Positions 1-64,000 of a stretch of 64,000 bases of DNA are shown in pieces (positions within the stretch are counted from its first letter, which is position 1; every line of letters starts with the position of its first letter). The position numbers were made by a program, and so were the translations under genes. The DNA comes from Pontibacter sp. HSC-36F09 (lineage in GTDB: Bacteria; Bacteroidota; Bacteroidia; Cytophagales; Hymenobacteraceae). Where the stretch lies: contig NZ_JALKAA010000003.1 in NCBI RefSeq assembly GCF_024171605.1, positions 558,001 through 622,000 of the forward strand, written 5' to 3'. The notes beneath the pieces were generated by a model. That model searched no databases. It saw only the letters and a program-made list of their open reading frames with translations, and was not told where the DNA came from.

Positions 1-218
1 TTTTCCTCCCGGTAGGTTTTCACGAAGGTACCCTGTCCTTTGGCGGATACGTGCCAGTCGATTGAGCGCACGTCGTCGCCGTACTGGTAGGCGCGCACGT
101 CATCAAACTCCAGCCCCGTACCTTTAAAAACGGAGTGGAAGTCGCCCTGCATCTGGGTGTTGATGGCTTTGCGTATGCGTATCTCGTACTTGCGCAGCTT
201 TTGAACAAGTTCCTTCAT
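1..218 (-). CDS. DUF58 domain protein, N-terminal part (runs off the window)
   Basis: The first 72 or so codons of a minus-strand gene begin at the ATG at 216-218 and run off the left edge. The peptide starts MKELVQKLRKYEIRIRKAIN and contains the DUF58 signature: a GDFHSVFKGTGLEFDDVR stretch, then YQYGDDVRSIDW and a KTYREE end. DUF58 proteins are cytoplasmic, related to von Willebrand factor A domains, and are usually encoded beside a MoxR-type AAA ATPase and BatA/BatB proteins, which would lie outside this window. The gene diverges from the DUF4296 lipoprotein gene with a gap of about 60 bases. Family assignment is firm; the function of DUF58 proteins is poorly known. Confidence 0.85.
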   Translation of the reverse strand, partial: MKELVQKLRKYEIRIRKAINTQMQGDFHSVFKGTGLEFDDVRAYQYGDDVRSIDWHVSAKGQGTFVKTYREE

Positions 219-277
219 AGGGTAGGGGCTTTGCCTCAGATTTTAAAATTAGGACATATTCCCGTAATATTACATTC

Positions 278-688
278 GTGAAACGATTTTTATACCTACT
301 TTCCTTTGCCGTACTGGCTGGCTGCGGCCAAAGTCCTGAAAAGCGACCTGCTGACTTATTGCCAGAACAAAAGATGGTGCAGATTCTGGCGGATGTGCAT
401 ATCGCTGAATCGCGCATCGAAACGCACGTGATGTACCCGGATACAGCACTGATGGTCTTCAACAAAGAGCAGCAGCAGATCCTGGCGGAGCATGGTGTTA
501 CACAGGAAGACTTTCGCAAGACCTACCGCTACTACCTGAGCAACCTTACACAGATGGATAAACTCTATGAGATTATTCTGGATACGCTGAGCGTTCGCGA
601 GGCCAAACTGCGCGCCACCGATACAACGGGCGTAGCTCCAAGGCAACCGCCGGTGCCTATACTGGAAGGTATGCAGCAGGCTTATTAG
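278..688 (+). CDS. DUF4296 domain lipoprotein
   Basis: 136-residue protein starting with GTG at 278. The N-terminus is a lipoprotein signal: a basic MKR, a hydrophobic stretch and the lipobox LAGC with the lipidated Cys at residue 16. The body has the DUF4296 pattern: a helix with KMVQILADVHIAES near residue 45, then YPDTALMVFNKEQQQILAEHG and a YRYYLSN segment. DUF4296 is found almost only in Bacteroidota and has no established function; envelope location follows from the lipobox. The stop lies one base from the stop of the convergent csaA-like gene, with no clear terminator between them. Confidence 0.85.
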   Translation: MKRFLYLLSFAVLAGCGQSPEKRPADLLPEQKMVQILADVHIAESRIETHVMYPDTALMVFNKEQQQILAEHGVTQEDFRKTYRYYLSNLTQMDKLYEIILDTLSVREAKLRATDTTGVAPRQPPVPILEGMQQAY

Positions 689-689
689 C

Positions 690-1025
690 CTAAATCAGCT
701 TGCTGCCATTCGGCACGGGGCCGGCCGGTTGCGCCAGCACTATATCTCCGTTCTCGTCGGCAAAACCTGTCACCAGCACCTCCGACATATATTTTCCGAT
801 TTGTTTGTTGCCCAGGTTGGTCACACACAGCACCTGCTTTCCGGGTAGATCTTCCAAGGTATAGTGCTTCGTGATCTGCGCGCTTGATCTTTTCAAACCC
901 AGTGGACCCAGGTTGATGAGCAGTTTATAAGCCGGTCTGCGCGCTTCCGGAAATTCTGTGGCTTCTACGATAGTGCCCACTCGTATATCTGTTTGTTCAA
1001 AATGTTGCCATGAAATGGTCGGCAT
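690..1025 (-). CDS. csaA: CsaA-like tRNA-binding domain protein
   Basis: 111-residue protein that is one EMAP/Trbp111-type tRNA-binding OB fold. Diagnostic pieces are FEQTDIRVGTIVEATEFPEARRPAYKL near the N-terminus, SSAQITKHY in the middle, and VLCVTNLGNKQIGKYMSEVL near the end. CsaA proteins are dimers with RNA-binding and secretion-chaperone-like activity in Bacillus; the role in Bacteroidota is not settled. I place the start at the ATG at 1023-1025, which gives the usual family length of about 110. In-frame ATGs at 1046 and 1070 would add 7 or 15 residues that are not part of the fold. Confidence 0.85.
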   Translation of the reverse strand: MPTISWQHFEQTDIRVGTIVEATEFPEARRPAYKLLINLGPLGLKRSSAQITKHYTLEDLPGKQVLCVTNLGNKQIGKYMSEVLVTGFADENGDIVLAQPAGPVPNGSKLI

Positions 1026-1192
1026 GGCTTCTTCGGGTGTATGCATTGTCTGTATGTTTTTCACGCCCAAGTTAAGGAATCTCCTTTAAATTAAGTTCGT
1101 TAAGCCCTCCTGTTGGCCTCTTGGGTAACATTAGGCTTATACCCGCGTATCCTAGGCAACTGACTTTCTTACTGTTAAAAATGCAGAAAGTG

Positions 1193-1200
1193 TAAGTTTG
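1193..1200 (+). promoter_or_regulatory. Candidate -7 promoter element
   Basis: TAAGTTTG matches the Bacteroidota -7 consensus TAnnTTTG exactly and lies 27 bases before the ATG of the FAD/Rieske gene, leaving a leader of about 20 bases. No clean TTTG -33 box is visible at the expected distance, so the call rests on the -7 match and position. Confidence 0.4.
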
Positions 1201-1227
1201 TCGAAGCTATTGCAAAACCTATAAACT

Positions 1228-2772
1228 ATGAAAAGAGAATCTGGAGCAAGTTTACCCGTGTGGGTGGAGAATATATCGATGCCTGTGACCAGTCCCCTAC
1301 AGGACAATATCCGATGTGATGTCTGCATTGTTGGGGCAGGTATAGCAGGAGTTACCACGGCCTACCTGTTGGCAAAAGAAGGGCGCGATGTTGTGTTGCT
1401 GGAGGCCAAAGAAATAGGCGGTGGCGAAACAAGCCGCACGACGGCCCACCTGTCCAATGCGCTGGATGAGCGGTTCGACGAACTGATTCGCCTGCACGGG
1501 GAGGATGGCGCGCGCCTGGCTGCCCAAAGCCATGGAAAGGCAATCGACAAGATCGAAGAGATCATAAAGGATGAAAAAATTGACTGCGATTTTGCCCGTG
1601 TAGACGGCTATCTGTTCGCCACGGACAACAAGCAACAAGATGACCTGATGAAGGAATTAGAGGCGCTGCAGAAAATCGGTTGGCTTGATGTGGTGCTTCG
1701 CAAACGCAGCCCGCTGAGTACGCTGACGGAGTTCCCTTGTCTGCAATACCCCAACCAGGCGCACTTTCACGTTTTGAAATACCTTTCTGCTCTGGCTAAC
1801 GCCTTTATCAAAGCAGGTGGCCGTATCTTCACTAAAACCAAGGTTGAGCGTTTTGAGACCGGCCCGGTTGTATCGGCTGTTTCAAAAGAAGGTCATGCAG
1901 TGGCAGCTAACCATTTGGTGGTGACAACGAACACGCCGATCAACGACATGGTGACGATGCACACAAAACAGGCCCCTTACCGCACCTACGCCATCGGGCT
2001 TGCGGTACGGCAGGGCGAAGTGCCGGATGCGCTTTACTGGGACATGGAAGATCCTTACCACTACGTGCGGTTGATGAAAGGCAAAACAGGCGGTGAGAAT
2101 GCAGAGGACCTCGACCTGCTGATTGTGGGAGGGGAGGACCACAAGACAGGACAGGGCGATCACCTGAGTGAGCGATTTGAGGCCCTTGAGCGCTGGACGC
2201 GCAAGCATTTCCCGATGGCCAAAGAAGTGGTCTACCGTTGGTCAGGCCAGGTGCTGGAACCTGTCGACGGCCTTGGTTTCATAGGACGTAATCCGGGTGA
2301 TTCTGAGAATGTGTACATCGCCACCGGCGACTCGGGCCATGGCATGACAAACAGCACTATTGCCGGTATGTTGATTACCGATCTGATACAGGGAAGGCCA
2401 AATCCGTGGGAAAAGCTCTATGATCCGAGCCGTAAGAACACTCAATCGGTAGGTGAGTTCCTAAAGGAGAACATCAACGTGGCCGCTCAGTTCAAGGATT
2501 TCGTGACACCCGGTGAGGTGAAAGATCCGATGGAAGTGATGCCGGGAACGGGCAAAATCATGCGTAAAGGCATGAGCAAAGTAGCAGTTTACTGCGACCA
2601 AGATGGTGTGCGGCACCAATGCTCGGCAGTGTGTACGCACATGGGCTGCGTGGTGCATTGGAACGAAGTGGAAAGTTCTTGGGATTGTCCCTGCCACGGC
2701 TCCCGCTTTGATCCTTTCGGAAAGGTAATTACGGGTCCGGCTTCCAAAGACCTGGGTCCGGTTGAAGAATAA
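1228..2772 (+). CDS. FAD-dependent oxidoreductase with C-terminal Rieske domain
   Basis: 514-residue fusion. Residues about 30-400 are a DAO-type flavoprotein: the dinucleotide motif CIVGAGIAGVTTAYLLAKEG opens the fold and is followed by LLEAKEIGGGETSRTTAHLS. Near residue 380 is GDSGHGMTNSTIAG, the second FAD contact. Residues about 425-514 form a Rieske 2Fe-2S domain with both ligand pairs: CTHMGC, then CPCHGSRF after a short loop. Such fusions are thought to pass electrons from an amine or amino-acid-like substrate through FAD to the cluster, but the substrate is unknown. It is a single-gene unit: its own -7 element lies upstream and a strong terminator follows within 25 bases. Confidence 0.88.
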   Translation: MKRESGASLPVWVENISMPVTSPLQDNIRCDVCIVGAGIAGVTTAYLLAKEGRDVVLLEAKEIGGGETSRTTAHLSNALDERFDELIRLHGEDGARLAAQSHGKAIDKIEEIIKDEKIDCDFARVDGYLFATDNKQQDDLMKELEALQKIGWLDVVLRKRSPLSTLTEFPCLQYPNQAHFHVLKYLSALANAFIKAGGRIFTKTKVERFETGPVVSAVSKEGHAVAANHLVVTTNTPINDMVTMHTKQAPYRTYAIGLAVRQGEVPDALYWDMEDPYHYVRLMKGKTGGENAEDLDLLIVGGEDHKTGQGDHLSERFEALERWTRKHFPMAKEVVYRWSGQVLEPVDGLGFIGRNPGDSENVYIATGDSGHGMTNSTIAGMLITDLIQGRPNPWEKLYDPSRKNTQSVGEFLKENINVAAQFKDFVTPGEVKDPMEVMPGTGKIMRKGMSKVAVYCDQDGVRHQCSAVCTHMGCVVHWNEVESSWDCPCHGSRFDPFGKVITGPASKDLGPVEE

Positions 2773-2793
2773 CCTGCTTAAAAACTTAAAATC

Positions 2794-2831
2794 AAAAGCC
2801 CTGCTTTGCGATGTCGTAAAGCAGGGCTTTT
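2794..2831. terminator. Bidirectional terminator
   Basis: Perfect 14-base inverted repeat AAAAGCCCTGCTTT with its complement around a 10-base loop. It is A-rich on one side and T-rich on the other, so it can stop the FAD/Rieske gene from the left and the DUF922 gene from the right. Confidence 0.9.
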
Positions 2832-2841
2832 GATTTTTGTC

Positions 2842-3429
2842 TTATTTCCAGGAGTCCAATTCCTGCAGGCGTTGTGTTATCCGCTCATCCCAATCTTGCT
2901 GAGCCTGTGCATCCAGCCCATGGCGGGACAATTTATCGAATTGATCTTGCTCAGCTTTCCAGGCTTTGAATGCGTTACCGACCGTGTTGTTAAGGTTTGT
3001 CTTTAGGTTGCCACAAGACATTCCAAGTTCCTTCAATTCCCGGCGCAGCATACGGGCATGCACCTCCGTGAGGTCAAAATGTAGTTGCTCGTGTGCCAGC
3101 AGCTTCTCCGACTTCTTGTTCTTCGACCAGGACTCTCCCGGAAGAAACACGCACTTCACCTCGTAGTAAAACATATTGTCTTTGCAGCGTGCGTCCACGG
3201 CCAGGTTGGCAGCCGTGAGGGCATGGTGCGGGTTAGTCGATTCAGGTATCCCTCTGAAGTCTTCCCAGTTTAATCTCCGCTCTGCAGACCAGGCCAGTTG
3301 TTCCGTATTAGAAACGGTGTGACTGGCTGAGTTCGGAACATGAATAACGGTCGCCGGCGAACCGGCTGGGGTGGGATATGGCAATAGCAAGCCCACCAGT
3401 AGGCTAAGGAGTAGAGTAATGATAAACAT
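2842..3429 (-). CDS. DUF922 family putative secreted metallopeptidase
   Basis: 195 residues. A hydrophobic N-terminal segment (FIITLLLSLLVGLLLPY) suggests export or anchoring. The DUF922 core has the LNWEDFRG opening near residue 54 and LLAHEQLHFDLTEVHARML near residue 110, where HEQLH fits a zinc-binding HExxH-like site (the Glu is in place). Pfam describes DUF922 as predicted secreted Zn-dependent proteases; activity is not proven. It lies between a terminator and the MATE gene. The next gene upstream on the same strand starts at 4842 and ends at 3502, leaving about 70 bases, so co-transcription with the MATE gene is possible. Confidence 0.8.
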   Translation of the reverse strand: MFIITLLLSLLVGLLLPYPTPAGSPATVIHVPNSASHTVSNTEQLAWSAERRLNWEDFRGIPESTNPHHALTAANLAVDARCKDNMFYYEVKCVFLPGESWSKNKKSEKLLAHEQLHFDLTEVHARMLRRELKELGMSCGNLKTNLNNTVGNAFKAWKAEQDQFDKLSRHGLDAQAQQDWDERITQRLQELDSWK

Positions 3430-3501
3430 CGGCTAAAAGTTTAAAAAGTCTCTATCGGGGCAACACGGTCACGTGTAAATAGGTGCCACTATTGCATTAT
3501 T

Positions 3502-4842: not shown

Positions 4843-4864
4843 AAAGGGAAAGGAAAAAGGACTG

Positions 4865-4896: not shown

Positions 4897-4930
4897 AGTC
4901 CAGTTGCATTAGTCAGTTATATCGATCTGC

Positions 4931-5032: not shown

Positions 5033-5058
5033 AGGATGATTAGGTCGATCCAAGCAGG

Positions 5059-8557: not shown

Positions 8558-8581
8558 CTATACCTATACCTATACCTATAC
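8558..8581. repeat. Four tandem CTATAC(C) hexamers after menC
   Basis: Four perfect head-to-tail CTATAC units just after the menC stop, in the opposite orientation to the long array at 41.5 kb. They belong to the window-wide AGGTATA/TATACCT family. Confidence 0.9.
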
Positions 8582-16628: not shown

Positions 16629-19600
16629 ATGGCCTTAGGTAAAAATTTGAAGCTGAGCAAAGACAAGCTCATTAGTGACGTAGAAACCAGCCAACCAGAA
16701 AAGACGACTCCATCGCGTGCGAAAGCGAAACAGCAGATGCCTGCTGCCACTACGACTGTGGAGGAGAAACAGGAGCCCCCTCAATTGAAACAGGAAAGTA
16801 CCAATGCTCCTGCAGCCAGGACGGAAGCCCCTGATACTGCTGCCAGAAAAGAAGCAGGCACTAGTTCGCTTGCTGTGAAAAGCGCACCCAACGGAAAGCA
16901 GAGCCGCAAACAGGTGCTGCCATCCAGCCCGGAATATATTGGCGAACAGCTAAACAAAGTGCTTTATGCCCTTGATGCCTTTAAAAAAGGGGATATCTCG
17001 GTTCGTCTGACCAAACAGAACGACGACATTTTCGCAGAGATCGCCGAAGCCTACAACTCGATGGTGGAAATGATCGGCGGTGTAGGCGGTGAGGTGTCAC
17101 GTATCTCGAAAGTGGCAGGAGTAGAGGGTAACCTGAAAGCCCGTGCCTCGGCCGAGAATGCTTCCGGTTTCTGGAAGGACATGATCAACAACATCAACGG
17201 CCTGGTGGACTCCATTGCGGTTCCGGTACTCGAAGTGGGTAAAGTACTGAAGAACATCTCGCGTGGTAACCTCGACGAAACATTCCAAATCCCGGTATCG
17301 GGTGACTTCAAGGTCATGGCCGAAACTATCAACCGTACCATCGACAACCTGAACCTGTTTGCCGGTGAGGTAACGCGTGTGGCGCTTGAGGTGGGTACCG
17401 AGGGTAAACTCGGTGGCCAGGCATCGGTGCCAAACGTGGCAGGCGTATGGAAAGACCTGACCGATAATGTAAATACTATGGCCAGCAACCTGACCTCGCA
17501 AATGCGTGACATCTCGAATGTGGCGACTGCGGTGGCGAAAGGTAACCTGGCTCAGAAAATATCAGTGGATGTTCGCGGTGAGTTTGCCCAGTTGAAGGAC
17601 AACATGAACCAGATGGTGGACTCGCTCAACATCTTCGCTGACGAAGTGACAAGAGTGGCCCGCGAGGTAGGTACGGAAGGACGCCTCGGTGGCCAGGCCA
17701 AAGTGCCGAACGTTGGTGGTGTATGGAAAGACCTGACCGACAACGTGAACACGATGGCCAGCAACCTGACCTCTCAGATGCGCGACATTGCAAACGTATC
17801 TACGGCAGTTGCGAAAGGCGACCTGACGCAGAAGATCACGGTGAATGTACGGGGTGAGATGGCTGAACTGAAAGATATCATCAACCAGATGGTGGACTCA
17901 CTCAACATCTTTGCCGGTGAGGTAACAAGGGTTGCCCGTGAAGTGGGAACAGAAGGTAAACTAGGCGGACAGGCAGCTGTACCAAATGTTGAAGGTACCT
18001 GGAAAGAACTCACTGACAACGTGAACCTGATGGCAGGCAACCTGACACTGCAGGTACGTGACATTGCAGAAGTAGCGACAGCTGTGGCGAAAGGTGACCT
18101 GACTCAGAAAGTGTCTGTAGACGTGAAAGGAGAGTTAGGTGATCTGAAAGACATCCTGAATGAAATGGTGGACCGACTGAATGTGTTTGGCGCGGAAGTA
18201 ACCCGTGTAGCACGTGAGGTAGGTACCGAAGGTATACTAGGCGGTCAGGCCGACGTGCCGAACGTGGCGGGTATCTGGAAAGAGCTCACCGACAACGTGA
18301 ACTACATGGCTTCCAACCTGACCCTGCAGGTACGTGATATTGCCAATGTGGCAACCGCTGTGGCGAAAGGTGACCTGAGCCAGAAGATCACAGTGAATGT
18401 GAAAGGCGAACTTGCCGACCTGAAGGAGAACCTGAACCAGATGGTGGACTCGCTAAACATCTTCGCTGACGAAGTAACAAGAGTGGCCCGCGAAGTAGGT
18501 ACTGAAGGACGCCTCGGCGGCCAGGCCTCAGTGCCGAACGTTGGTGGGGTATGGAAAGACCTGACCGACAATGTGAACACGATGGCCTCCAACCTGACGC
18601 TGCAGGTACGTGACATTGCCAACGTAGCGACTGCAGTAGCGAAAGGTGATTTGGCGCAGAAAGTGTCTGTGGATGTGAAGGGTGAACTGGGCGAGTTGAA
18701 GGAAAACATCAACCGCATGGTGGACTCACTGAATATCTTCGCCGGTGAGGTGACTCGTGTGGCCTTGGAAGTGGGAACCGAAGGTAAACTGGGTGGACAA
18801 GCTACTGTTCCAAACGTGGGCGGTGTTTGGAAAGACCTGACCGATAATGTAAATACGATGGCCTCCAACCTGACCACACAGGTGCGAGGTATAGCCAAAG
18901 TAGCAACTGCCGTGGCGAAGGGTGACCTTAGCCAGAAAATTACAGTTGAAGCGCGTGGCGAACTTCTTGATCTAAAAGAGAACCTCAACCAAATGGTGGA
19001 CTCTCTGAACGTATTTGGTGATGAAGTAACGCGTGTGGCTCGTGAAGTGGGTACAGAAGGTAAACTGGGCGGACAGGCCAATGTGCCAAATGTAGCCGGA
19101 ACCTGGAAAGATCTGACTGACAACGTAAACTACATGGCTTCCAACCTGACTTCTCAGGTACGTGACATCGCTAAGGTAGCGACCGCGGTAGCGAAAGGTG
19201 ACTTGAGCCAGAAGATCACGGTGGAAGCCCGCGGTGAGATTTTGGATCTGAAGGAGAACCTGAACCAGATGGTGGACTCGCTCAACATCTTCGCTGACGA
19301 AGTAACCCGTGTGGCACGTGAGGTGGGCACGGAAGGTCGCCTCGGTGGTCAGGCGAATGTACCTAAGGTACGTGGTACCTGGAAGGAACTCACTGACAAC
19401 GTGAACACCATGGCCTCCAACCTGACGCTGCAGGTACGCGACATTGCTAAAGTGGCAACTGCCGTGGCGAAAGGCGACCTGACGCAGAAAGTGTCTGTAG
19501 ATGTGAAAGGTGAACTGAACGAGCTAAAGGAAAACATGAACCGCATGGTGGACTCGCTCAACGTTTTCGCCGGTGAGGTAACACGTGTGGCGCTAGAAGT

Positions 19601-21188
19601 AGGTACAGAAGGTAAACTGGGTGGACAGGCCAACGTGCCAAATGTAGGGGGCACTTGGAAAGACCTGACTGATAATGTAAATACCATGGCCTCCAACCTG
19701 ACCACACAGGTGCGAGGTATTGTACGCGTAGTAACGGCCGTATCAAAAGGTGACCTGACCCAGAAACTGACCCTCGAAGCAAGAGGAGAGGTAGCTGAGC
19801 TGGCCGACACGATCAACACCATGGTGGTTGACCTGAACCGCCTGGCGGGTGAGGTTAGCCGTGTGGCGAGAGTAGCTGGTGTGGAAGGAAAACTGACCGA
19901 GCGAGCCACTCTGCAAGGTGTAGGCGGCAGCTGGAAAGAACTGGTGGATACGCTGAACGACCTGCTGGAGTCCATCGTGACGCCGGTACTGGAAGTATCC
20001 CGCGTAGTGCGCGCTATCTCAGAGGGTGATTTGACCCAGAAAGTGGAGGCACATACCGCTGGTGACATTCTGGACATGGCCAACGCCCTGAACCTGGCGG
20101 TTGACAACCTGAACGCGCTTCTTGGTGAAATTAATGACTCATCGCTGGTAGTAGGAAGCTCTTCCGAAGAAATGGCTGACAAAGGCCTTGAAATGAACCG
20201 CGTGACGCTCGATGTGGCACTTGCCATGCAGCAAATGGCGGAAGGTGCCCAGAATCAGGCCCTCAAGACAGACCAAGCCTTCAAGCTGATCGAAGAGATC
20301 ATGAAAACTACGAAGGATACGGCAGCTCGTGCAGAGGTAGTGAACAAATCCGCCACGCTGGGTGAGGAAACATCTCAGTTGGGTCTGAAAACAGTAGCCG
20401 AAGTGGTGAAGAACATGGAAGAGATCTCCAGTTCTGCCTCGCTTACCTCTAAAACAATTGAAGTACTAAGTGCCCGTTCGCAAGAAATTTCCAAATCACT
20501 TGGTGTGATCACCGACATTGCCGCACAAACAAACCTGCTTGCCCTGAACGCTGCCATTGAGGCGGCCCGTGCCGGTGAGGCAGGACGCGGTTTCGCGGTA
20601 GTAGCTGAAGAGATTCGCAAACTGGCCGAGGGATCACGCAAATCTGCTAACGAGATCAACACGCTGGTAGAAGACGTGAAAAAAGATACCGCCTCTGCCG
20701 CAATGGCGATCTCCACCATGGAAGGCCGTGTATTGAAAGGAAAGAATGCGACATTCGAAGCATCCGGTGCCTTCAAAAATATTGCCGCTTCCTCTGGTGA
20801 AACGCTTCGTTCGGCACAGGACATCCTGACAGCAACTGAGGTACAGAAGTCATCGATCGGTGATGTAGTGAAGTATGTGGAAGAAGTAGTAGCCATTGCC
20901 GAGCAAACGGCCTCTGGTACACAGCAGGTGGCGAGCACAGCCAAGCAGCTGTCCGCTTCGATGCAGGAACTTACGTCTTCTTCTCAGAACCTGAACGACA
21001 TTGCCGCTGACCTGCAGATTAGTATCTCCGCCTTTAAACTGGTGGATGGTAACCTGGTGTTTAACCATAGCCCGAATAACCGTCGTCTGGCTTCTATGCC
21101 TGCCAAGCCGAAGCAAAAGCAATTGGCTGGTAACTCACGTCTGAGCTCTGTTAGCTCCAGAAATAAAACCAGCGAGGACAACAAATAA
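16629..21188 (+). CDS. Soluble poly-HAMP methyl-accepting chemotaxis protein
   Basis: 1519 residues with no membrane segment. Residues 1-107 are a polar, Lys/Thr/Ala-rich, probably disordered leader ([14 protein letters not shown] at the start). Then come 23 HAMP-like modules: 12 of the KGDL type ([10 protein letters not shown]) alternating with 11 of the EVTRVA...[10 protein letters not shown]...WKDL type, in 92-residue pairs. From about residue 1170 is the receptor signalling hairpin, with the tip [41 protein letters not shown]. The tail is short and basic. It heads a run of cheW, cheY, cheB, cheA and cheC. It must form a cytoplasmic array; the ligand or input is unknown. No sensor domain is visible. 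Confidence 0.93.
17367..19850 (+). repeat. Nine in-frame 276-bp tandem repeats inside the receptor gene
   Basis: Units start at each EVTRVA codon block (17367, 17643, and so on to 19575) and are exactly 276 bases, or 92 codons, long, so nine units fill the interval without a gap. They are very similar at DNA level, for instance the recurring GTGGACTC(G/A)CT(C/G)AACAT and GACCTGAC(C/T)GA(C/T)AA segments. Each unit encodes one pair of HAMP-like modules. The similarity suggests duplication and ongoing homogenisation; unit number may vary between strains. Confidence 0.92.
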
Positions 21189-25022: not shown

Positions 25023-25670
25023 ATGGATTACGGAATTTATAACACGATGAACATGATGGATACGCATGTAACCGAGTTGGAAAAGGATATTATCAAAGAA
25101 ATCCTCAATATAGGACTGGCACGCGCCGCCGATTCTTTTGCCACTATCGCCAAAGATAAGGTCATGCTCAAGGTGCCCGATGTGCAGCTGATCGAAGTAA
25201 AAGACCTTATTTCGCTTATCGCCAAATATGAAAACTCACACTTTATCATTCAGTCTGATATAAAAGGTGACTTTAACGGCGCTACGCTCATGCTCTTTTC
25301 AGATGAGCACATCACACTGCTCTCCAACGTGTGCCTCAGCATGTTGAATGTGCAGAAGGGCGAACTGAATGTGATGCAGGAGTCACTGCTACTCGAAATC
25401 AGCAATATTATAACGGGAGCCCTGGTTACCCAGTTGGCTAACATCCTGAAGAGTAACATTTACGGCTCGCCCCCGAAAGCGCCTAAAAGCCACATTGCGA
25501 ACTCACTGAAGGATATCTTGGTACAGCATCCGCTTTTCCAGCCACTTGTGTTCACGGTCATCACCAAGTTCCAGCATAATTCAAAAGATATAGAACTTCC
25601 CTTGCTATTGTTTTTCGATACAGGCACTCTTATCAAGATGCTTGAAATCATCAGAACTTTTAAAGTATAA
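25023..25670 (+). CDS. cheC: CheC-family CheY-P phosphatase
   Basis: 215 residues. Two E-x-x-N catalytic motifs typical of CheC are visible: IIKEILNIGLARAA near residue 25 and LLLEISNIITGALVTQL near residue 125. CheC removes phosphate from CheY and in many species binds CheD; no cheD is present here. It starts 12 bases after the cheA stop and is the last gene of the run, followed by a hairpin terminator built from the AGGTATA motif. CheX is the alternative name for relatives, but two ExxN sites favour CheC. Upstream in-frame ATGs give small start uncertainty (residue 11 is also Met). Confidence 0.88.
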   Translation: MDYGIYNTMNMMDTHVTELEKDIIKEILNIGLARAADSFATIAKDKVMLKVPDVQLIEVKDLISLIAKYENSHFIIQSDIKGDFNGATLMLFSDEHITLLSNVCLSMLNVQKGELNVMQESLLLEISNIITGALVTQLANILKSNIYGSPPKAPKSHIANSLKDILVQHPLFQPLVFTVITKFQHNSKDIELPLLLFFDTGTLIKMLEIIRTFKV

Positions 25671-25717: not shown

Positions 25718-25771
25718 ACGAGCTATACCTGTCTGGTTTATCCCCACAGGTATAGCTCGTACGCTTTTTAT
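25718..25771 (+). terminator. Hairpin after cheC made of two inverted AGGTATAG motifs
   Basis: Perfect 15-base inverted repeat: ACGAGCTATACCTGT at 25718-25732 and its complement at 25746-25760, loop of 13 bases, then CGCTTTTTATG. Both arms are copies of the window-wide motif. It sits 47 bases after cheC and 130 before speE. Confidence 0.8.
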
Positions 25772-41502: not shown

Positions 41503-41601
41503 GTATAGGTATAGGTATAGGTATAGGTATAGGTATAGGTATAGGTATAGGTATAGGTATAGGTATAGGTATAGGTATAGGTATAGGTATAGGTATAGGT
41601 A
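41503..41601 (+). repeat. GTATAG tandem array, 16.5 copies
   Basis: A perfect hexamer array, GTATAG repeated 16 times plus GTA, 99 bases with no mismatch, ending where TACGGC begins. It is the pure tandem form of the window-wide AGGTATA motif. It lies between the gmd terminator and the tRNA-Asp cluster. It encodes nothing: the open frames through it (Gly-Ile repeats on one strand, Tyr-Thr on the other) are artefacts. Its perfection suggests slippage-driven growth. Confidence 0.97.
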
Positions 41602-41658: not shown

Positions 41659-41661
41659 AAG

Positions 41662-41735
41662 CGGTCTGGACGGGACTCGAACCCGCGACCTCCGCCGTGA
41701 CAGGGCGGCATTCTAACCAACTGAACTACCAGACC
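41662..41735 (-). tRNA. tRNA-Asp (GUC), copy 1
   Basis: 74 bases including the discriminator G. Cloverleaf on the minus strand: acceptor GGTCTGG/CCAGACC, anticodon stem-loop CCGCC-CTGTCAC-GGCGG with anticodon GTC, and T loop GGTTCGAGTCC. CCA is not encoded. It is the last of three copies on the minus strand and ends at a hairpin terminator. Confidence 0.97.
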
Positions 41736-41793
41736 AATACTTAGAAAAGATCAGAGTCATCTACTCTGAAAAATAAACCGCAGTTTAATTCTG

Positions 41794-41867
41794 CGGTCCG
41801 GACGGGACTCGAACCCGCGACCTCCGCCGTGACAGGGCGGCATTCTAACCAACTGAACTACCGGACC
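41794..41867 (-). tRNA. tRNA-Asp (GUC), copy 2
   Basis: Same body as copy 1 with a compensated acceptor change (GGTCCGG/CCGGACC). Right after the acceptor the minus strand forms CCGCAG-AATTAAA-CTGCGG, a hairpin that overlaps the 3' end of the tRNA and is followed by a T-rich tract. Confidence 0.97.
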
Positions 41868-41927
41868 AAAATTTTAAAAACAGTAAAACCTGTTGCTTTA
41901 CTACTAATAACCGCAGGGGTTAAGCTG

Positions 41928-42001
41928 CGGTCTGGACGGGACTCGAACCCGCGACCTCCGCCGTGACAGGGCGGCATTCTAACCAACTGAACTACCAGAC
42001 C
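41928..42001 (-). tRNA. tRNA-Asp (GUC), copy 3
   Basis: Identical body to copy 1, anticodon GTC. A similar CCGCAG...CTGCGG hairpin (41911-41929 on the plus strand) overlaps its 3' end. It is the first copy transcribed on the minus strand. The three copies are 58-60 bases apart. Confidence 0.97.
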
Positions 42002-46928: not shown

Positions 46929-49900
46929 CTAAGCGATTTGTCTTAAGTCTACAGGTATAACCCTGGATATACCTGCCTCAATCATAGTGATGCCGTACAT
47001 CACGTCTGTAGAGGCCATAGTGCGCTTGTTGTGCGTTACCACAATGAACTGCGATTCGTTCGAGAAGGTACGGATGATGTTGTTGAACTTGTCAATGTTC
47101 GCATCGTCCAGTGGTGCATCCACCTCGTCGAAAATACAGAACGGTGCCGGCTTGAGCAGGTAAATGGCGAAGAGCAGGGAGATAGCCGTCAAAGTCTTCT
47201 CACCACCCGACAACTGGTTGATCGTCAGCGGTCGCTTGCCTTTTGGTTGCGCCATGATCTCGATACGCGAGTCCAGTGGGTTCTTCGGATCTGTCAGTAC
47301 CAGGTCGCAATTATCTTCTTCGGTAAACAGGCTGCGGAATACCCGGATAAAGTTCTGCTTGATCTCATTAAATGAGGACAGAAACTTCTCTTTTGCCACC
47401 GTGTCGATCTCGTTGATCGTATCGATAAGCGCATTCTTGGCGTTAACCAGGTCATCCCGCTGCTCTGTGATAAACCTGTTGCGCTCTTCGATCTCCACAT
47501 AAGCTTCGGCCGCCATGGCATTCACCGGGCCCATTTTATCCAGCGATGTTCTGATCTCACTGATGTTCTTATTCAGCTCTTCATTACTCAATTGGAACAG
47601 TCCATCGTGCTCCAGCTCAGGTATAGGTTGCTCCAGTTCTTCGGTTGCAATATTAAATTCAGCTCCCAAACGCTCCTGTACTGACACCAGTTTAATGCGT
47701 GTATCATTAATGGTCTGCTGCATCCGCATCAGTAGTTCATCCGCATTCTGACGCTTGCGTTGCAGCTCGCGTATGGTTTTGTCTTTCTCGTCGAGCTCGC
47801 CTCGCATACTGAAGTATTTCTTTTCTACAGCATCCAGTTCATAGCCAAACTCGCTGCGGGCTTCCACCATAGACTGAACCAGCGCCTCGTTCTTTTCTAT
47901 AAAATCAGTAGCTTCAACTGTTTCTTCCTCTGATTTCTCCAGTTCCTGGCGCAGACCGGCGATACGCTCCTGGTTCGTCTCTACTGTCTTCTGCTTATAG
48001 CTGATTTCCTGCTGCAGAGAACCAAAGCGGTTCTTGAGTTGGTGAAACTGGATGTTCTCCTGGTTGTACATACCTGAGATCACCGTAATCTGCTCTTGCT
48101 GTTGGTTAATCTGCGAATTGAGTACAGCCATTTGCTCCTCCAACTGCTTCAGTTCCTGCATGTCCTCCTCAGCCTGTGGCGAAATCTGCTGACTCTGCAC
48201 GTATAGATCGTCAAGGCGCTGTTGCAATTCCTGTTGCTTCTGATCGAAGTTTTTGCGGTTCTGCTGGTGCTGCTCGTTTTTAATGCGAACCGTGAGTAGT
48301 TCCTGCTGGAGTTTTGCCACCTCTTTTTCCAGCTGCTTGATCGCATCTTTCTGTGACTCGCTACGGTAGTTGAGCAGAATCTGCTGCTGTGCGTTAATAC
48401 GGCTTTGCATCAACTCTACGCCCTGTTGCAGTTTCTCCAACTCTTCGGACAGTTGCTCCAGGTTTTGCTTGCGCCCCAAGCGGCTGCCATCAAACAGGCC
48501 TACCGAGCCTCCTGAAAGACTGAGCGGCTTCTTAATAGCGGAACCGTCTTTTAGGATGATCGTGCGGTAGTCTTCTGCTGAAAAGTCTTCTTCAGTTTCG
48601 TCGCTGATGTACACATTGCGCAACATGTACTTGAGCAGGTTGCTATATTTCTTATCAGCTTTTACGACCTCAAAAGCAGCCTTCAAAGCTCCCTCACTAA
48701 AGGTAGCTGTCGGCTCCAGTTCTTCAATTTCGGAGAGGATAATAAAGTTTGCACGGCCCTTGTTGTGCTGCTTGAGCAAGGCGATAGCATCTACGGCATC
48801 CTGCAGTTCCTCTACCACAAAGAAGTTCATGTAGGGCTCGAGATAGCTTTCGATAAGCGACTTATAATCAGGCTCACAGACAATGATATCTGAAAGGAGT
48901 GGAGCTGGATTTTTCCAGTCTTTCGACTGCGCCAGGTACTTGATCGCCTCCGGAAAACCTTCCATATTTTCGACCAGTGATTTGGTCAGGTTGTACTGGT
49001 TCTGACGAGCGTCACGTGTTCGGTTTAGCGCTACCAGCTGTTCTTTCAGCCCTTCAATATCAGTTTCTGTTTTCTCAATATTCTGTAGCAGCGACTCTTC
49101 CTTAGCCTGCAAACTCACAAGGGTAGAGGTCCTGTCTTCCAGCTCGGCCTGTGCCTCCTGTAGTTGCTCCTGCAGCAGGGCTGCGTCTTCGTCGGCTGTC
49201 AGTTGTTGCTGTCTGAGTTGCTCCAAATCCTGTGTCAGGTTATGAATCTGAACCTGGCTGATCTCAAGAGATTTATTCAGTTGGAATACGGCATTCTGCT
49301 TGATTCGCTGTTCCTGCGACAATTCTTGGGAAGCTTCCTGCAGGCTGAGCTTTTGTTCGTTCGCCTCCTGCAGCTGCTCTTTTAATGCATTCACTTGTTC
49401 TTCGGCACCTGCAAAACTGTCCTGTACCTGTATCAGTTCGTCACGCAGCTCTACAATACTCTCCTGTGTATGCTCCAGGTTGGCAGTATCCTGACTGATC
49501 TGCTGCCGAAGCTGCGTCATTCGCTCTTTCAGGAAATTGCTGCGTTCCGATTTAAGCTTGATATCATTCTCCAGTTGGCGCAGTTTGGCTGTCTGCACCT
49601 GCATGGTTTTCTGCATCTCGGCCAGCTGCTCCTGTGTCAGGTTCAGTTCGGATTTCTGGTCGGCAATAGCGTCTTCAGCTTCTGTTACAGCCAGCACATA
49701 ACTCTCTTTTAGCTCAGTTTCGCGCTGCACATCCTGCTCCAGCCGCTCCAGCGTTTGCTGGTACTGGTTGATGTTGCGGCGGGCAAACTCCAGACTGAAT
49801 TTCTTGTAGTCATCCTTTAACTGGAAGTACTTAATCGCCTGTTTTGCCTGGCGTTCCAATGTTTTCATGTTCTTGCCGATCTCGAAGAGTACGTCTTCTA

Positions 49901-50471
49901 CACGCTCCAGGTCGGCATCAGTTTCTTCCAGCTTCTTGAGCGTCTGCTTTTTGCGCACACGGAACTTGGATATACCAGCAGCTTCTTCAAATAACAGTCG
50001 ACGGGAGTTTTCCTTATCGTTCAGGATCTCATCTACCATCTTCAGCTCAATAATGGCGTAACTGTCAGATCCTATACCTGTGTCGAGGAAGAGCTCATTG
50101 ATGTCTTTGAGTCGGCAGGTTACGCCGTTGAGCATATACTCGCTGTCGCCGTTGCGGTAGTACTTGCGCGTAACGGTTACCTGGGAGTACTCGGTCGGGA
50201 GGATGCCCTTGTTGTTGTCGAAGGTAATAGACACTTCGGCCATCTGCACCGGCTTGCGGGTTTTGGAGCCGTTGAAGATCACGTTCTCCATTTTGTCGGA
50301 GCGCAGGTTTCGGGTCTTCTGTTCTCCCAACACCCAGCGTATAGCATCCACAATATTGGATTTGCCGCAGCCATTCGGGCCCACTATACCTGTAATTCCT
50401 TCATCAAAATTAATGACGACACGGTCGCCAAAACTCTTGAATCCTTTAATCTCTAATCTTGATACTTGCAT
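46929..50471 (-). CDS. smc: Chromosome segregation protein SMC
   Basis: 1180-residue SMC. N-terminal Walker A GPNGCGKSNIVDAIRW, then a long coiled coil, a hinge near residues 510-640 (GFPEAIKYLAQSKDWKNPAP, FNFFVVEELQDAV-type region), a second coiled coil and the C-terminal signature LSGGEKTLTAISLLFAIYLL with Walker B CIFDEVDAPLDDAN. It condenses DNA with ScpA/ScpB. The gene stands alone. The AGGTATA motif is rare inside it (about three copies in 3.5 kb). Confidence 0.96.
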   Translation of the reverse strand: MQVSRLEIKGFKSFGDRVVINFDEGITGIVGPNGCGKSNIVDAIRWVLGEQKTRNLRSDKMENVIFNGSKTRKPVQMAEVSITFDNNKGILPTEYSQVTVTRKYYRNGDSEYMLNGVTCRLKDINELFLDTGIGSDSYAIIELKMVDEILNDKENSRRLLFEEAAGISKFRVRKKQTLKKLEETDADLERVEDVLFEIGKNMKTLERQAKQAIKYFQLKDDYKKFSLEFARRNINQYQQTLERLEQDVQRETELKESYVLAVTEAEDAIADQKSELNLTQEQLAEMQKTMQVQTAKLRQLENDIKLKSERSNFLKERMTQLRQQISQDTANLEHTQESIVELRDELIQVQDSFAGAEEQVNALKEQLQEANEQKLSLQEASQELSQEQRIKQNAVFQLNKSLEISQVQIHNLTQDLEQLRQQQLTADEDAALLQEQLQEAQAELEDRTSTLVSLQAKEESLLQNIEKTETDIEGLKEQLVALNRTRDARQNQYNLTKSLVENMEGFPEAIKYLAQSKDWKNPAPLLSDIIVCEPDYKSLIESYLEPYMNFFVVEELQDAVDAIALLKQHNKGRANFIILSEIEELEPTATFSEGALKAAFEVVKADKKYSNLLKYMLRNVYISDETEEDFSAEDYRTIILKDGSAIKKPLSLSGGSVGLFDGSRLGRKQNLEQLSEELEKLQQGVELMQSRINAQQQILLNYRSESQKDAIKQLEKEVAKLQQELLTVRIKNEQHQQNRKNFDQKQQELQQRLDDLYVQSQQISPQAEEDMQELKQLEEQMAVLNSQINQQQEQITVISGMYNQENIQFHQLKNRFGSLQQEISYKQKTVETNQERIAGLRQELEKSEEETVEATDFIEKNEALVQSMVEARSEFGYELDAVEKKYFSMRGELDEKDKTIRELQRKRQNADELLMRMQQTINDTRIKLVSVQERLGAEFNIATEELEQPIPELEHDGLFQLSNEELNKNISEIRTSLDKMGPVNAMAAEAYVEIEERNRFITEQRDDLVNAKNALIDTINEIDTVAKEKFLSSFNEIKQNFIRVFRSLFTEEDNCDLVLTDPKNPLDSRIEIMAQPKGKRPLTINQLSGGEKTLTAISLLFAIYLLKPAPFCIFDEVDAPLDDANIDKFNNIIRTFSNESQFIVVTHNKRTMASTDVMYGITMIEAGISRVIPVDLRQIA

Positions 50472-57049: not shown

Positions 57050-57085
57050 GGCCTAATCCCGTATTGATAACTCGTCAATAGGTAT

Positions 57086-57114
57086 AGGTATAGCAGGGAT
57101 ACATGGCTATACCT
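57086..57114. repeat. Inverted AGGTATAGC pair with extra direct copy
   Basis: AGGTATAGC at 57086-57094 and its complement GCTATACCT at 57106-57114 form a nine-base stem with an 11-base loop. A further direct copy begins at 57080. It lies between the lipoprotein stop and the bidirectional terminator, so it is not needed as a terminator. Confidence 0.75.
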
Positions 57115-59140: not shown

Positions 59141-59345
59141 AGTTTGTTATGTTTTTAGTTTTTGTGGTTAATGATATAACGTTGAAACCATACTGTCCCT
59201 ATCATTTCCTGTGCCAAGGCCGTTTCTCTGCCAATTTGAGCCATTTTAGCAGCTTTCGGCCACTTGCTGACTGACATTTCTGTCAGGCTATGTCAGGTAT
59301 GCATGAACTGGCAGGAGGGAGTGACAGGGAGCGAGGTGCGAAAAC

Positions 59346-59376
59346 AAAAAAGCCGGCTTTAAAGGCCGGCTTTTTT
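59346..59376 (-). terminator. Terminator of secG
   Basis: Perfect 12-base stem AAAAAAGCCGGC with its complement, seven-base loop, T run on both sides. It lies 16 bases after the secG stop on the minus strand. Confidence 0.92.
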
Positions 59377-59391
59377 AGGTATAAGTTAATG

Positions 59392-59772
59392 CTACTTGGC
59401 AGTGTCTGTCATAGTAGGGATCTCAGCTGCGTCAGGAATCGACATGTCACCTTCAGACTCAGCTCCTGGCAGAGCCGGAGCAGCTGGAGTACCCATCTGG
59501 CGGGCACGCTCTTCGTTTACGCTGCGGATGGTTGTATCAGCACTGGTGTCGATCATCATGTGTGTACCAAGCGTCAATACTACCAACGCAATGGCGAAAC
59601 CCCAGGTTAGTTTCTCAAGCAGGTCGCCTGTGCGCTTCACGCCCATCAGCTGGCTGGCACCACCGCCGCCAAACTGGCTTGAAAGTCCACCACCTTTAGG
59701 GTTTTGAGCAAGTACTACTAATATAAGAAGTACGCAAATGAAAAGAATGATACTGATTAGGGCGATATACAT
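59392..59772 (-). CDS. secG: Preprotein translocase subunit SecG
   Basis: 126 residues. Two membrane helices: IALISIILFICVLLILVVLAQ and LEKLTWGFAIALVVLTLGT, joined by the conserved NPKGGGLSSQFGGGGASQLMG. SecG assists SecYE. A C-terminal extension (residues about 85-126) is polar and found in other Bacteroidota. One base separates its ATG from the TPR protein stop, so they form one transcript. Confidence 0.95.
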   Translation of the reverse strand: MYIALISIILFICVLLILVVLAQNPKGGGLSSQFGGGGASQLMGVKRTGDLLEKLTWGFAIALVVLTLGTHMMIDTSADTTIRSVNEERARQMGTPAAPALPGAESEGDMSIPDAAEIPTMTDTAK

Positions 59773-59773
59773 T

Positions 59774-61102: not shown

Positions 61103-61135
61103 GTAAGGGTTAAAGGTAATGGTGCTATGTAATGA

Positions 61136-61660
61136 CTACCAGTTTGCAACCGACTTGTTAAACACATCGGCTACCAATCGCTCAGTCATGCGGTCGATGG
61201 CAGCGGGTGGTATGCTTGTAATGTCCACGGTCGGAGGGAACTCCTCAGTGATCGTAAACTGCTGATCAAAATCCTGCTCGGGATCCTTCGCGTTCGTAAA
61301 GCGGATTTGAATGCCCATCGTGAGGCGGTTCAGCGTGGCCTGATCAATATTCCCATCGCGCTGTACCGCGTTTGGCGTCAGCGTAAAAGTAATGATCTGT
61401 CCCTCTAATTGCAAATCGCCATCGCGCTGCAAAACAGTCAGGTTTGTGTTGCGCTGATAATAGTTTTTGAAGCTGTTGGTGACCACCTGCGAGAGGTTGG
61501 AGGGGCCTTCGCCGGCCGTGTTCTCGATCGTCTGGATCGAGATGGTCTTGATATCAGGGGAGATGGAGGTGCCTGTAAAAGAATAGACCCCGCAGGCATT
61601 GCAGCACAGGGCTACCAGCACAGTCAGACACAGGACAAGGGTTTTAGTTCTCAATATCAT
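61136..61660 (-). CDS. lptE: LptE-family lipoprotein
   Basis: 174 residues. Signal with lipobox LCCNAC (Cys near residue 23), then GVYSFTGTSISPDIKTISIQTIENTA and FKNYYQRNTNLTVLQRDGDLQLEGQIITFTL. It is the Bacteroidota LptE-like protein that should plug LptD for LPS export. It starts inside the 3' end of the sigma-54 activator gene (17-base overlap), which suggests translational coupling. Confidence 0.88.
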   Translation of the reverse strand: MILRTKTLVLCLTVLVALCCNACGVYSFTGTSISPDIKTISIQTIENTAGEGPSNLSQVVTNSFKNYYQRNTNLTVLQRDGDLQLEGQIITFTLTPNAVQRDGNIDQATLNRLTMGIQIRFTNAKDPEQDFDQQFTITEEFPPTVDITSIPPAAIDRMTERLVADVFNKSVANW

Positions 61661-62918
61661 ATTGCTTCAGTTTGCGGTACAGCGTTCTTTCCGAAATACC
61701 CAGATCATTGGCCGCGTATTTCCGTTTGTTGTTGTGCTTTTTAAGCGCTTTCAGGATCATCTCCTTCTCCATTGACTCCAGCGACAGGCCTTCTTCCTCA
61801 GTTTCATGAGAGATGTCTTCTACACGCTCATCATATTCTTCATCATCACGTGGCTGCTGCACAGGCAGGTAGTAAGGCTCGGGTTTCTCAGCGCTCTTGT
61901 AAGGGCGCACATGATTTACCTGCTCAATGTTCTCAAACAAGTGACTGTGCTCTTTCAGCAGTTCGTTGTCGCCGGACTGCCGTGTCATGAGTTCGTATAC
62001 CAGTTTTTTGAGATCCGACACATCGCGCCGCATATCAAAGAGTACTTTGTACAGCAGATCACGCTCAGAGAAAGAGTGGTCCGCACCGTTCTCTCTGGCC
62101 AGCAAAGCCGGAACCTGACTGCCACCCTGCTCACGGGGAAGGTAGTGTCTTAGCCTGGCTGCGTCGAGCTCACGTTCGTACTCCAACACCGATATCTGCT
62201 CGACAATATTTTTCAGCTGACGGATGTTACCCGGAAAACGGAAACTCAAAAGCTCCTCCACCGCATCTGGCGTAAGCGTAATGGATTTAACGCGGTAACG
62301 TTCCGCAAAGTCAGAGGCAAACTTTCTGAACAGCAGGTAAATATCCTCGCCACGTTCACGCAAAGGTGGAACTGTGATTGGCACCGTGTTCAGTCGGTAA
62401 TACAGGTCTTCCCGGAAACGGCCTCTTTCCACGGCATTGATCAGGTTTACATTGGTAGCAGCCACTACCCGTACATCCGTCTTCTGTACTTTGGAAGAGC
62501 CAACTTTGATAAACTCACCGTTTTCGAGCACGCGAAGCAGACGAGCCTGTGTGGCAAGAGGCATTTCACCAATCTCATCGAGAAAGATTGTGCCACCGTC
62601 CGTTACTTCAAAATAGCCTTTGCGGGTATCTGTGGCGCCAGTAAATGAACCTTTTTCGTGACCGAAAAGCTCCGAGTCGATGGTGCCTTCAGGTATAGCG
62701 CCGCAGTTAATGGCAATGAACTGTCCATGCTTGCGCGGACTCAGTTGGTGTATGATCTTGGAAAAGGACTCCTTGCCGCTGCCGCTCTCACCCGTAATCA
62801 GCACGGTCATTTCGGTTGGGGCCACTTGGGCAGCCACCTGTATGGCGTAGTTAAGCAAGGGTGAGTTGCCAATAATGCCAAAACGCTGTTTTATGCTCTG
62901 TATATCGATGTTGCGCAT
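61644..62918 (-). CDS. Sigma-54-dependent transcriptional activator
   Basis: 424 residues. AAA+ domain with Walker A VLITGESGSGKESFSKII, GSFTGATDTRKGYFEVTDGGTIFLDEIGEM (the sigma-54 loop is GSFTGA rather than GAFTGA) and RFREDLYYRLNTVPITVPPLRER. C-terminal Fis-type HTH: MILKALKKHNNKRKYAANDLGISERTLYRKLK. There is no receiver or sensor domain before the AAA+ part, so regulation must come from elsewhere. It lies between miaB and lptE, a place it holds in many Bacteroidota. Confidence 0.93.
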   Translation of the reverse strand: MRNIDIQSIKQRFGIIGNSPLLNYAIQVAAQVAPTEMTVLITGESGSGKESFSKIIHQLSPRKHGQFIAINCGAIPEGTIDSELFGHEKGSFTGATDTRKGYFEVTDGGTIFLDEIGEMPLATQARLLRVLENGEFIKVGSSKVQKTDVRVVAATNVNLINAVERGRFREDLYYRLNTVPITVPPLRERGEDIYLLFRKFASDFAERYRVKSITLTPDAVEELLSFRFPGNIRQLKNIVEQISVLEYERELDAARLRHYLPREQGGSQVPALLARENGADHSFSERDLLYKVLFDMRRDVSDLKKLVYELMTRQSGDNELLKEHSHLFENIEQVNHVRPYKSAEKPEPYYLPVQQPRDDEEYDERVEDISHETEEEGLSLESMEKEMILKALKKHNNKRKYAANDLGISERTLYRKLKQYDIEN

Positions 62919-62934
62919 GTCTTAAGATTTGAGG

Positions 62935-63024
62935 ATTTGGAGATAAGCAGATTTGAAAATGGTTTAGAAGAGCAAAGTATACGTTTCGTCATCTTCAAAT
63001 TTCCAAATTTTCAAATCTCCAAAT
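62935..63024. repeat. Degenerate AT-rich inverted repeat
   Basis: ATTTGGAGAT (62935-62944) is the complement of ATCTCCAAAT (63015-63024), and ATTTGAAAAT (62951-62960) of ATTTTCAAAT (63007-63016). These arms could fold into a long AU-rich hairpin over the spacer between miaB and the sigma-54 gene; the right arm reaches the miaB stop codon. It is unlike the AGGTATA family. Confidence 0.6.
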
Positions 63025-64000
63025 TAATCAACCGCCTCGCCGAAGAGGGTGCCTACGGAGCAATCGTTAACAAATACGTTCACGTAGTCGCCTTTCTGGT
63101 AATGCTTCTTGTCGAAGATCACAACTTTGTTCTGGTCATTGCGTCCGCTCAACTGCTGGTCAGATTTCTTGGAGAATCCTTCTACCAGCACGCGGTGCAT
63201 GCGCCCTATATCGCGCTTGTTGCGGTTCAGGGAGCACTCGCGCTGCTTTTCGATGATCTCGGCCAATCGCCGTTTCTTTACTTCCAGCGGAATGTCATCT
63301 TCCAGTTTACGAGCAGCCAGGGTGCCTGGGCGCTCGGAGTAGAAGAACATATAGGAGTAGTCGTACTGCACATAATCCATCAGCGAAAGCGTATCCTGGT
63401 GCTCTTCCTCGGTTTCGGAGCAGAAGCCGGCGATCATGTCGGAAGAGATGCCACAGTCTTCACCCAGTATGGCACGGATCGCATCCACACGGTTCAGGTA
63501 CCAGGCACGGTCGTAGGTACGGTTCATCAGTTCCAGCACACGGGAATTACCGCTCTGCGCTGGCAGGTGAATGTATTTGCAGATGTTGTCGTACTTTTTC
63601 ATGGTATACAACACCTCGTCTGTAATGTCTTTGGGGTGGGAGGTAGAGAACCGAACGCGCATCGTCGGGTTGAGTTTCGCCACCATTTCCAGCAGTTGGG
63701 CGAAGTTTACACTTTCTGTGCCGTCTTCTGAAGCCCATTTGTAAGAGTCTACATTCTGGCCCAGGAGAGTGACCTCTTTATAGCCTTGTGCCACTAGCGC
63801 TTCAGCTTCACGTACGATCGAGTGGGCGTCACGCGAGCGCTCACGACCGCGGGTGAAGGGCACCACGCAGAAAGAGCACATGTTATCGCAACCACGCATG
63901 ATCGAGATAAAAGCACTCACGCCGTTGCTGTTCAGACGGATTGGGTTGATATCGGCATAAGTTTCTTCACGGGAAAGCAGCACGTTCACCGCTTTTTGTC
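63024..64000 (-). CDS. miaB: tRNA 2-methylthio-N6-dimethylallyladenosine synthase MiaB (C-terminal part)
   Basis: The last 325 or so codons of miaB; the gene runs off the right edge. Radical SAM site [22 protein letters not shown] (C-x3-C-x2-C), then [21 protein letters not shown], and a C-terminal TRAM domain ([19 protein letters not shown] to [18 protein letters not shown]). MiaB adds the methylthio group to i6A37 of tRNA. The frame continues to base 64000 without a start, so the GTG at 63987-63989 is not the start. Confidence 0.95.

Follow-up and report, generated by a model that had tools for sequence, protein, structure and literature searches.

The DNA analysed here (the window) comprises 64,000 bp of Pontibacter sp. 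HSC-36F09 (contig NZ_JALKAA010000003.1, positions 558,001 to 622,000) and is rich in one seven-letter word, AGGTATA, counted together with its reverse complement TATACCT. By direct count, 122 dispersed sites lie between positions 1 and 64000, 68 on the forward and 54 on the reverse strand, in agreement with the roughly 120 sites on both strands reported in a preliminary description of the window. A tandem array on the forward strand (41503..41601) is built from 16.5 copies of the 6-bp unit GTATAG and sits just past the 3' end of three tRNA-Asp (GTC) genes on the reverse strand (41661..42001). This array had been recognized before, with 16 sites; it holds 15 overlapping ones. A smaller array of period 6, with three overlapping sites, occupies 8559..8577 on the reverse strand, and five of the words lie inside an SMC gene (46929..50471, reverse strand), which served as the anchor for fetching named relatives.

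Abundance and placement of AGGTATA

Across the draft genome (4.43 Mb; four short contigs with no readable letters were excluded from the counts), AGGTATA occurs 4,719 + 4,563 = 9,282 times and its reversed word 132 + 146 = 278 times. In 464 kb of this genome, window included, 998 copies were observed and 84.5 expected under an order-2 Markov model; for AGGTATAG, the same DNA gave 570 observed and 15.9 expected. Per window-sized stretch the model expects about 12 copies of AGGTATA, and the earlier figure of about 8 for any 7-mer holds for equal base use. A maximal-order Markov model inside the window (AGGTAT, 168 observed, 119.7 expected) conceals the 7-mer because the word's own 6-mers already hold the signal, and it was replaced by order-2 and masked order-3 models. 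The genome-wide excess proposed in the preliminary description is therefore real, and of the two outcomes that it had named as contrary, a Markov-corrected count near expectation and an excess confined to the window, neither occurred. The word is also specific, as had been stated: outside the array the window holds 104 copies, compared with 2-22 copies for each of the 21 one-mismatch forms, GGGTATA reaching 19 and TGGTATA 12.

Gene and spacer statistics rest on greedy longest open reading frames (ORFs) rather than curated genes. AGGTATA is found in both compartments and on both strands, at 1.71 per kb in ORFs and 4.23 per kb in spacers. All six coding frame and strand positions are enriched, by 5.2-28.2 fold, relative to shuffled sequences with unchanged protein and codon pool, and the word occupies 225 of 719 Gly-Ile pairs and 144 of 432 Ile-Pro pairs. 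The synonymous-codon shuffling rules out a codon or dipeptide artefact as the cause of the excess. AGGTATA acts at the DNA level. The dispersed sites have unrelated flanks, and no wider flanking motif was seen beyond the adjoining letters, where C is preferred before the word and G, then C or G, after it, while T after it is avoided, in genes and spacers alike. Convergent spacers are densest (6.84 per kb), same-direction spacers intermediate (3.81 per kb) and divergent spacers sparsest (3.09 per kb), an order that disfavours a promoter role. The strand bias, for which the preliminary description had proposed a check, is small: with the window array excluded, the G-rich strand carries the word at 1037 sites (52.4%) and the C-rich strand at 941.

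The word is unevenly distributed along the genome. Seven integrase-family genes were found, two of which, of XerC/D size, were set aside on size alone. In 16-kb windows on four of the others we counted 60 AGGTATA sites, compared with a null mean of 115 in random windows from the same stretches (P=0.009); the fifth, at the end of contig C9, lay outside the test in a 10.4-kb window of normal density (1.84 per kb). Pooled, the five regions hold 79 sites in 74 kb, or 1.06 per kb compared with the overall 2.04 per kb, and the DNA around four of the five examined integrases is poor in AGGTATA. Sites number 1.6-1.8 in 2-kb bins with less than 45% GC and 4.4-4.8 in those at or above 48% GC, despite the A+T-rich word (contig C15 entered this analysis and not those of strands and integrases). 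On C9, the density of AGGTATA is 0.70 per kb in a stretch containing glycosyltransferase genes. A still sparser region (L116, 0.5 per kb) was considered as a foreign island and rejected as one: six of its ORFs encode ribosomal protein L2, EF-G, RpoC, RpoB, ribosomal protein L1 and EF-Tu, and its low density more likely reflects coding constraint. A 5.7-kb contig, a candidate rRNA contig judged by its size, has 0.17 per kb.

Dialects and site turnover across Pontibacter

The strongest clue to the nature of AGGTATA, beyond the reach of a single window, is that related genomes carry different words. The window's SMC protein has 100% identity with its counterpart in Pontibacter sp. HSC-14F20, and the surrounding DNA 88.7%, which places the genome close to this strain. 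When 80 SMC loci were compared, 11 had at least 1.49 AGGTATA per kb, and these are the Pontibacter with SMC identity of at least 90%; the other 69 had at most 0.58 per kb. At the genome level, 12 of 50 Pontibacter genomes contain 5,748-9,303 copies and the other 38 contain 720-3,132. AASTATA, a count that pools AAGTATA and AACTATA and cannot separate them, exceeds its reversed control at least 2.9-fold in 28 of the 50 genomes (weakest in G163). Neither word reaches the cut-off, which was our own choice for word-bearing status, in the remaining 10, where AASTATA is at most 2.1-fold over control.

Ranking of words separates the dialects, named here by their first three letters. AAGTATA came first in a pool of 26 other Pontibacter loci (709 vs 121), AACTATA was the top word in four single loci, and several loci lacked such a word. 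Forty-two pooled outgroup loci had none, Botryobacter (L056) having been left out of the pools. One mixed locus carries AAG at 1.49 and AAC at 1.40 per kb together. In a tree of the SMC gene (43 rows, a single gene with 11 of 40 inner branches left open), the AGG species form one clade with an SH-aLRT support of 100, AAC falls within a clade that contains the mixed AAG/AAC locus, and the wordless species branch within or next to the AAG groups. AGGTATA is one dialect of a genus-wide word, A[G/A][G/C]TATA, and belongs to the clade around Pontibacter roseus. Two genomes are less clear-cut: G184 has 2,116 AGGTATA vs 544 reversed and no top word in 40 kb, and G188, one of the 10 without strict words (taken as Pontibacter sp. 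E15-1; L141, L142), has 79 GGTATA where 19.7 are expected, with GGTATG also raised, a possible fourth dialect of relaxed GGTATA type whose first letter is free.

Outside the genus, AGGTATA stays within about threefold of its reversed control in 154 genomes of five other genera, and a word survey of 40 stretches of 20 kb from these genera (g2-g6; one 2.5-kb stretch was excluded) gave weak hints only. In one 20-kb stretch of genus g3 (L222, genome G010), AACGCTA occurs 18 times where 2.1 are expected, and this sister genus may have a genome word of its own. In genus g4, ACCTAGGT occurs 10-14 times in 20 kb (L155, L204, L214) and ACCTAGCT 12-13 times (L155, L204), each with about one expected.

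Sites can change dialect in place, with AGG giving way to AAG and AAC likewise to AAG. With HSC-14F20 as reference, 26 distinct AGGTATA sites could be aligned to 14 AAG species; at 13 of them at least one species has AAGTATA, and the next one-step variant is seen at 4. The eight variants listed for seven wordless species (19 sites) do not include AAGTATA. The signal is weaker with P. roseus as reference, where AAGTATA stands at 6 of 20 sites and the next variant at 4. In the three AAC species, AAGTATA was found at 3 of 16 AGGTATA sites; with the P. roseus reference it does not appear in the list of eight variants. At AACTATA sites of P. burrus, AAGTATA appears at 10 of 38, compared with 2 of 30 in wordless species. 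Counts at the level of species pairs are not independent.

Conservation of sites between strains, a further check suggested in the preliminary description, was assessed in a 12-way alignment of 23.5 kb. Of the ungapped pairs, 59.6% preserve the AGGTATA site, compared with 30.1% for 60 anagram words, and 25% of pairs are gapped at AGGTATA sites vs 11% at the anagram words. Of 94 site groups, 34 were viewed; in these, change between species is mostly substitution in genes and shifted position in spacers.

A possible self-label for DNA uptake and its rivals

The reading that we favour, though as no more than an even call, is that AGGTATA is a self-recognition label that works like a DNA uptake sequence (DUS). 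The parts of this reading that we infer are that uptake is sequence-biased, that the bias drives accumulation of the word and that a receptor exists. Under such a mechanism, a surface DNA receptor would prefer fragments carrying the word, and DNA from kin would be taken up and then recombined. Each uptake would slightly favour word-bearing alleles, and the genome would fill with the word wherever protein and codon constraint permit. If the specificity of the receptor drifted, the sites would follow by point substitution and dialects would arise, all with uptake proceeding without a type IV pilus. With somewhat less than even confidence, we further suggest that this would be a new kind of pilus-independent, sequence-specific uptake in Bacteroidota, based on a seven-letter word in at least three and perhaps four dialects (AGGTATA, AAGTATA, AACTATA and possibly GGTATR), which re-label genomes and set recombination barriers between clades. 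A local job for each site is disfavoured, because whole genomes are re-lettered between clades and one locus carries two dialects.

The likeness to the DUS of Neisseriaceae is close in several respects. Both words are present in thousands of copies on both strands and far above expectation, and, in the available text on Neisseriaceae (PMC3630211), dialects a few letters apart follow the phylogeny, with a two-dialect species and wordless relatives; the kingDUS there, at 5,918 copies in 2.4 Mb, has a density similar to that of AGGTATA. As with DUS and the uptake signal sequence (USS) of Pasteurellaceae, the word is depleted around four integrases, the fifth region not being depleted, and comEC and dprA are encoded. 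The USS is likewise a short non-palindromic word in large excess, with 1,471 copies in H. influenzae (PMC1939737, available text). In contrast, the Pontibacter word has 7-8 letters and the DUS 10-12, its host belongs to Bacteroidota, it forms long tandem arrays and its uptake is inferred only; unlike the USS, it shows no wider flanking motif, and sequence, lineage and machinery differ.

The competence genes themselves were followed across the genus. ComEC, DprA and HHH_3 matches are present in 50 of 50 Pontibacter genomes each, and a double-HHH protein of 304-346 aa occurs in 49, being fragmented in G167. Disruptions of comEC and of dprA coincide, both affecting G167 (L255, L256) and G187, which is HSC-14F20 (L257, L258), and no other genome of the 50; in G167 the double-HHH gene is disrupted as well. 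The joint breakage suggests that the genes serve one trait, and it looks like repeated loss of competence. Poor assembly is an unlikely cause, since ORF lengths elsewhere are near ordinary (means of 310 and 312 aa in four and two other stretches of the broken genomes, compared with 329-338 aa in three others). In Riemerella, also of Bacteroidota, transformation requires ComEC, DprA, ComF, RecA, an HHH protein, a DUF5689 surface protein, a DUF1343 protein and an outer-membrane protein, according to the available text of PMC8459023, in which the term 'uptake sequence' is absent. Pontibacter encodes ComEC, DprA and putative HHH counterparts of this set, while DUF5689 was not found in the HSC-36F09 genome.

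Several results speak against uptake. A full type IV pilus ATPase, as would be expected from the Neisseriaceae, was not found in the 50 genomes: PF00437 (T2SSE), the sole ATPase family searched, gave fragments only, of at most 66 of 370 positions, three genomes being just over the cut-off. This result removes the type IV pilus as the candidate uptake machine, and for this reason AGGTATA is not to be filed as a DUS and a ComP-type minor pilin is not expected. No receptor or reader of AGGTATA was found; the DUF5689 protein was rejected as one, its domain being present in 22 of 50 genomes and 5 of the 12 AGG genomes independently of word status. Nor do comEC, dprA and HHH predict the word, because the 10 genomes without strict words keep comEC, dprA and the double-HHH gene with no stop listed. 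G187, despite its broken comEC and dprA, retains the full density of 9,303 sites, and the decay predicted for it is not seen. In six anchor regions of four species, unique presences number 4 in HSC-36F09, 25 in HSC-14F20, 6 in amylolyticus and 11 in BT731, and unique absences 6, 15, 17 and 18, so that HSC-14F20 shows 25 gains and 15 losses and differs from the others in the direction opposite to prediction (Fisher p=0.008; 0.03 with five species, 0.01 with three). Branch length accounts for part of this excess, since HSC-14F20 also leads for eight control words, with 69 of their 226 gains and 20 of their 50 losses. A recent break of comEC and dprA could reconcile G187 with uptake; the prediction itself still counts as failed. 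The reverse swap, in which AAG would become AGG, does not stand out clearly from background: AGGTATA occurs at 7 of 30 P. chinhatensis AAGTATA sites in AGG species vs 5 of 24 in wordless ones, and at P. arcticus sites the signal is weak (6 of 25 vs 2 of 19). Long tandem arrays are left unexplained by uptake alone. Inverted pairs, which are frequent in DUS and have been proposed as terminators there, are not enriched over same-direction pairs: at 15-40 bp apart, 37 opposite (26.3 expected) and 54 same-direction pairs (25.8 expected) were counted. Finally, the one paper found to join Pontibacter with transformation and competence appears to concern LexA.

The preliminary description had likened the word both to uptake sequences and to the highly iterated palindrome HIP1 of cyanobacteria. 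The former likeness fits better, given dialects that track the phylogeny, depletion in most integrase regions and the presence of competence genes; the latter is weaker. A word kept by a methyltransferase and methylation-guided mismatch repair, as for HIP1, would match the high density and the alternate words among relatives, which recall the alternate HIPs (PMC4390886, available text). However, HIPs are described there as GC-rich palindromes tied to methyltransferases, and AGGTATA is A+T-rich and non-palindromic, with no methyltransferase common to the word-bearing genomes in PF01555, PF07669 and PF02384 (PF00145 and PF02086 were not searched). More specifically, N6_N4_Mtase is missing from 2 of 12 AGG genomes, a full-length N6_Mtase match from five word-bearing genomes, and strong Eco57I matches are scattered. 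Conversion of a single neighbour into AGGTATA by mismatch repair was rejected: none of the one-step neighbours shows a depletion large enough to supply the excess. We regard this explanation as very unlikely. A word read in the manner of Chi by a helicase-nuclease such as AddAB or RecBCD, which would spare self DNA and whose dialects would mirror altered enzyme specificity, appears unlikely to us. Like Chi, AGGTATA is short, asymmetric and over-represented. It is frequent in resident DNA and depleted around four of five integrases, and its 52.4% preference would point the right way were the G-rich strand the leading one. Chi is strongly leading-strand biased, and the polarity of AGGTATA is very small; moreover, the word is A+T-rich and, at 2.04 per kb, about 10 times as dense as Chi in E. 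coli (1,008 copies in about 4.64 Mb; PMC1939737, available text). Chi and uptake words are named together as classes of over-represented oligomers in the accessible part of PMC4390886.

Binding sites of an abundant nucleoid or chromosome-organizing protein, selected at thousands of places, would account for a conservation of sites at twice the rate of control words, for one tandem array that holds its position across most of the clade, and for the competence-broken G187, which keeps and gains sites. That letters changed between clades, partly in place, is hard to accommodate if every site matters; some Pontibacter have no word, and the spacer densities run counter to a promoter role. We consider such a protein improbable as the main cause. 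Quite improbable, in our view, is another drive, be it biased gene conversion, a mutational process or array slippage seeding copies useless to the cell. It draws on the recurrence of arrays with periods 6, 13 and 20 and on the exact tandem arrays, of which 10 of 11 contain AGGTATA in AGG loci, 0 of 9 in other Pontibacter loci and 0 of 29 in outgroups. The dispersed sites, in contrast, have unrelated flanks, differ between species, in the site groups viewed, mostly by substitution or shifted position, and show flanking preferences identical in kind in genes and spacers.

If AGGTATA is an uptake label, self-labelled DNA uptake would extend beyond the pilus-bearing Neisseriaceae and Pasteurellaceae to a separate origin in Bacteroidota with other machinery, and a sequence-reading DNA receptor of a new kind would be indicated. 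One genus would then supply several dialects, a mixed-dialect species, wordless lineages and two competence-broken genomes, a set that would suffice to test uptake bias against selection as the genome-filling force, a long-open question. Even if the uptake reading is wrong, a word that covers about 1.5% of a genome and changes a letter between clades still needs a reader. Literature searches, from which most subscription journals were absent, returned no report of AGGTATA in a bacterial genome and, with joint terms, none of an uptake sequence in Bacteroidota; the matches to the three words concern rice or insect transposons in the text available.

Tandem arrays, inverted pairs and other observations

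The array next to tRNA-Asp occupies the same spot in 8 of 11 loci of the clade, with 6-20.8 copies; of the other three, one has a contig end there, one a single copy and one no copy. In the HSC-36F09 assembly, contigs C4 (L181, 1-110) and C6 (L183, 1-100) start within a 13-bp AGGTATA tandem array, and the assembly probably broke at these arrays. Eleven overlapping tandem AGGTATA sites lie at 9580-9646 of L197, about 0.4 kb beyond the 3' end of comEC, a proximity that may be chance.

Two hairpin-capable arrangements were found in spacers of the window. An inverted word pair with extended arms (25724..25754) follows an ORF that ends at 25670 and is a putative terminator only; in a convergent spacer, two tandem words and one inverted word (57080..57114) are predicted to form a hairpin. 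Inverted pairs followed by a T-run were absent at gaps of 3-12, the pattern skipping gaps below 3. In that scan, the inverted count of 20 + 22 includes each pair on both strands and the same-direction count of 84 is inflated by arrays, and the 15-40 bp count given above was used instead. With no enrichment and no T-run match at these gaps, inverted pairs were rejected as terminators; a termination role for uptake words is mentioned in PMC1939737. At L049, directly after the last tRNA-Asp, a hairpin with a T-run is made of an inverted AAGTATA pair.

Apart from the word, the window contains a 276-bp repeat of 8.5 copies (17370-19711) inside a 1519-aa ORF (16629-21188) near a CheB methylesterase gene.

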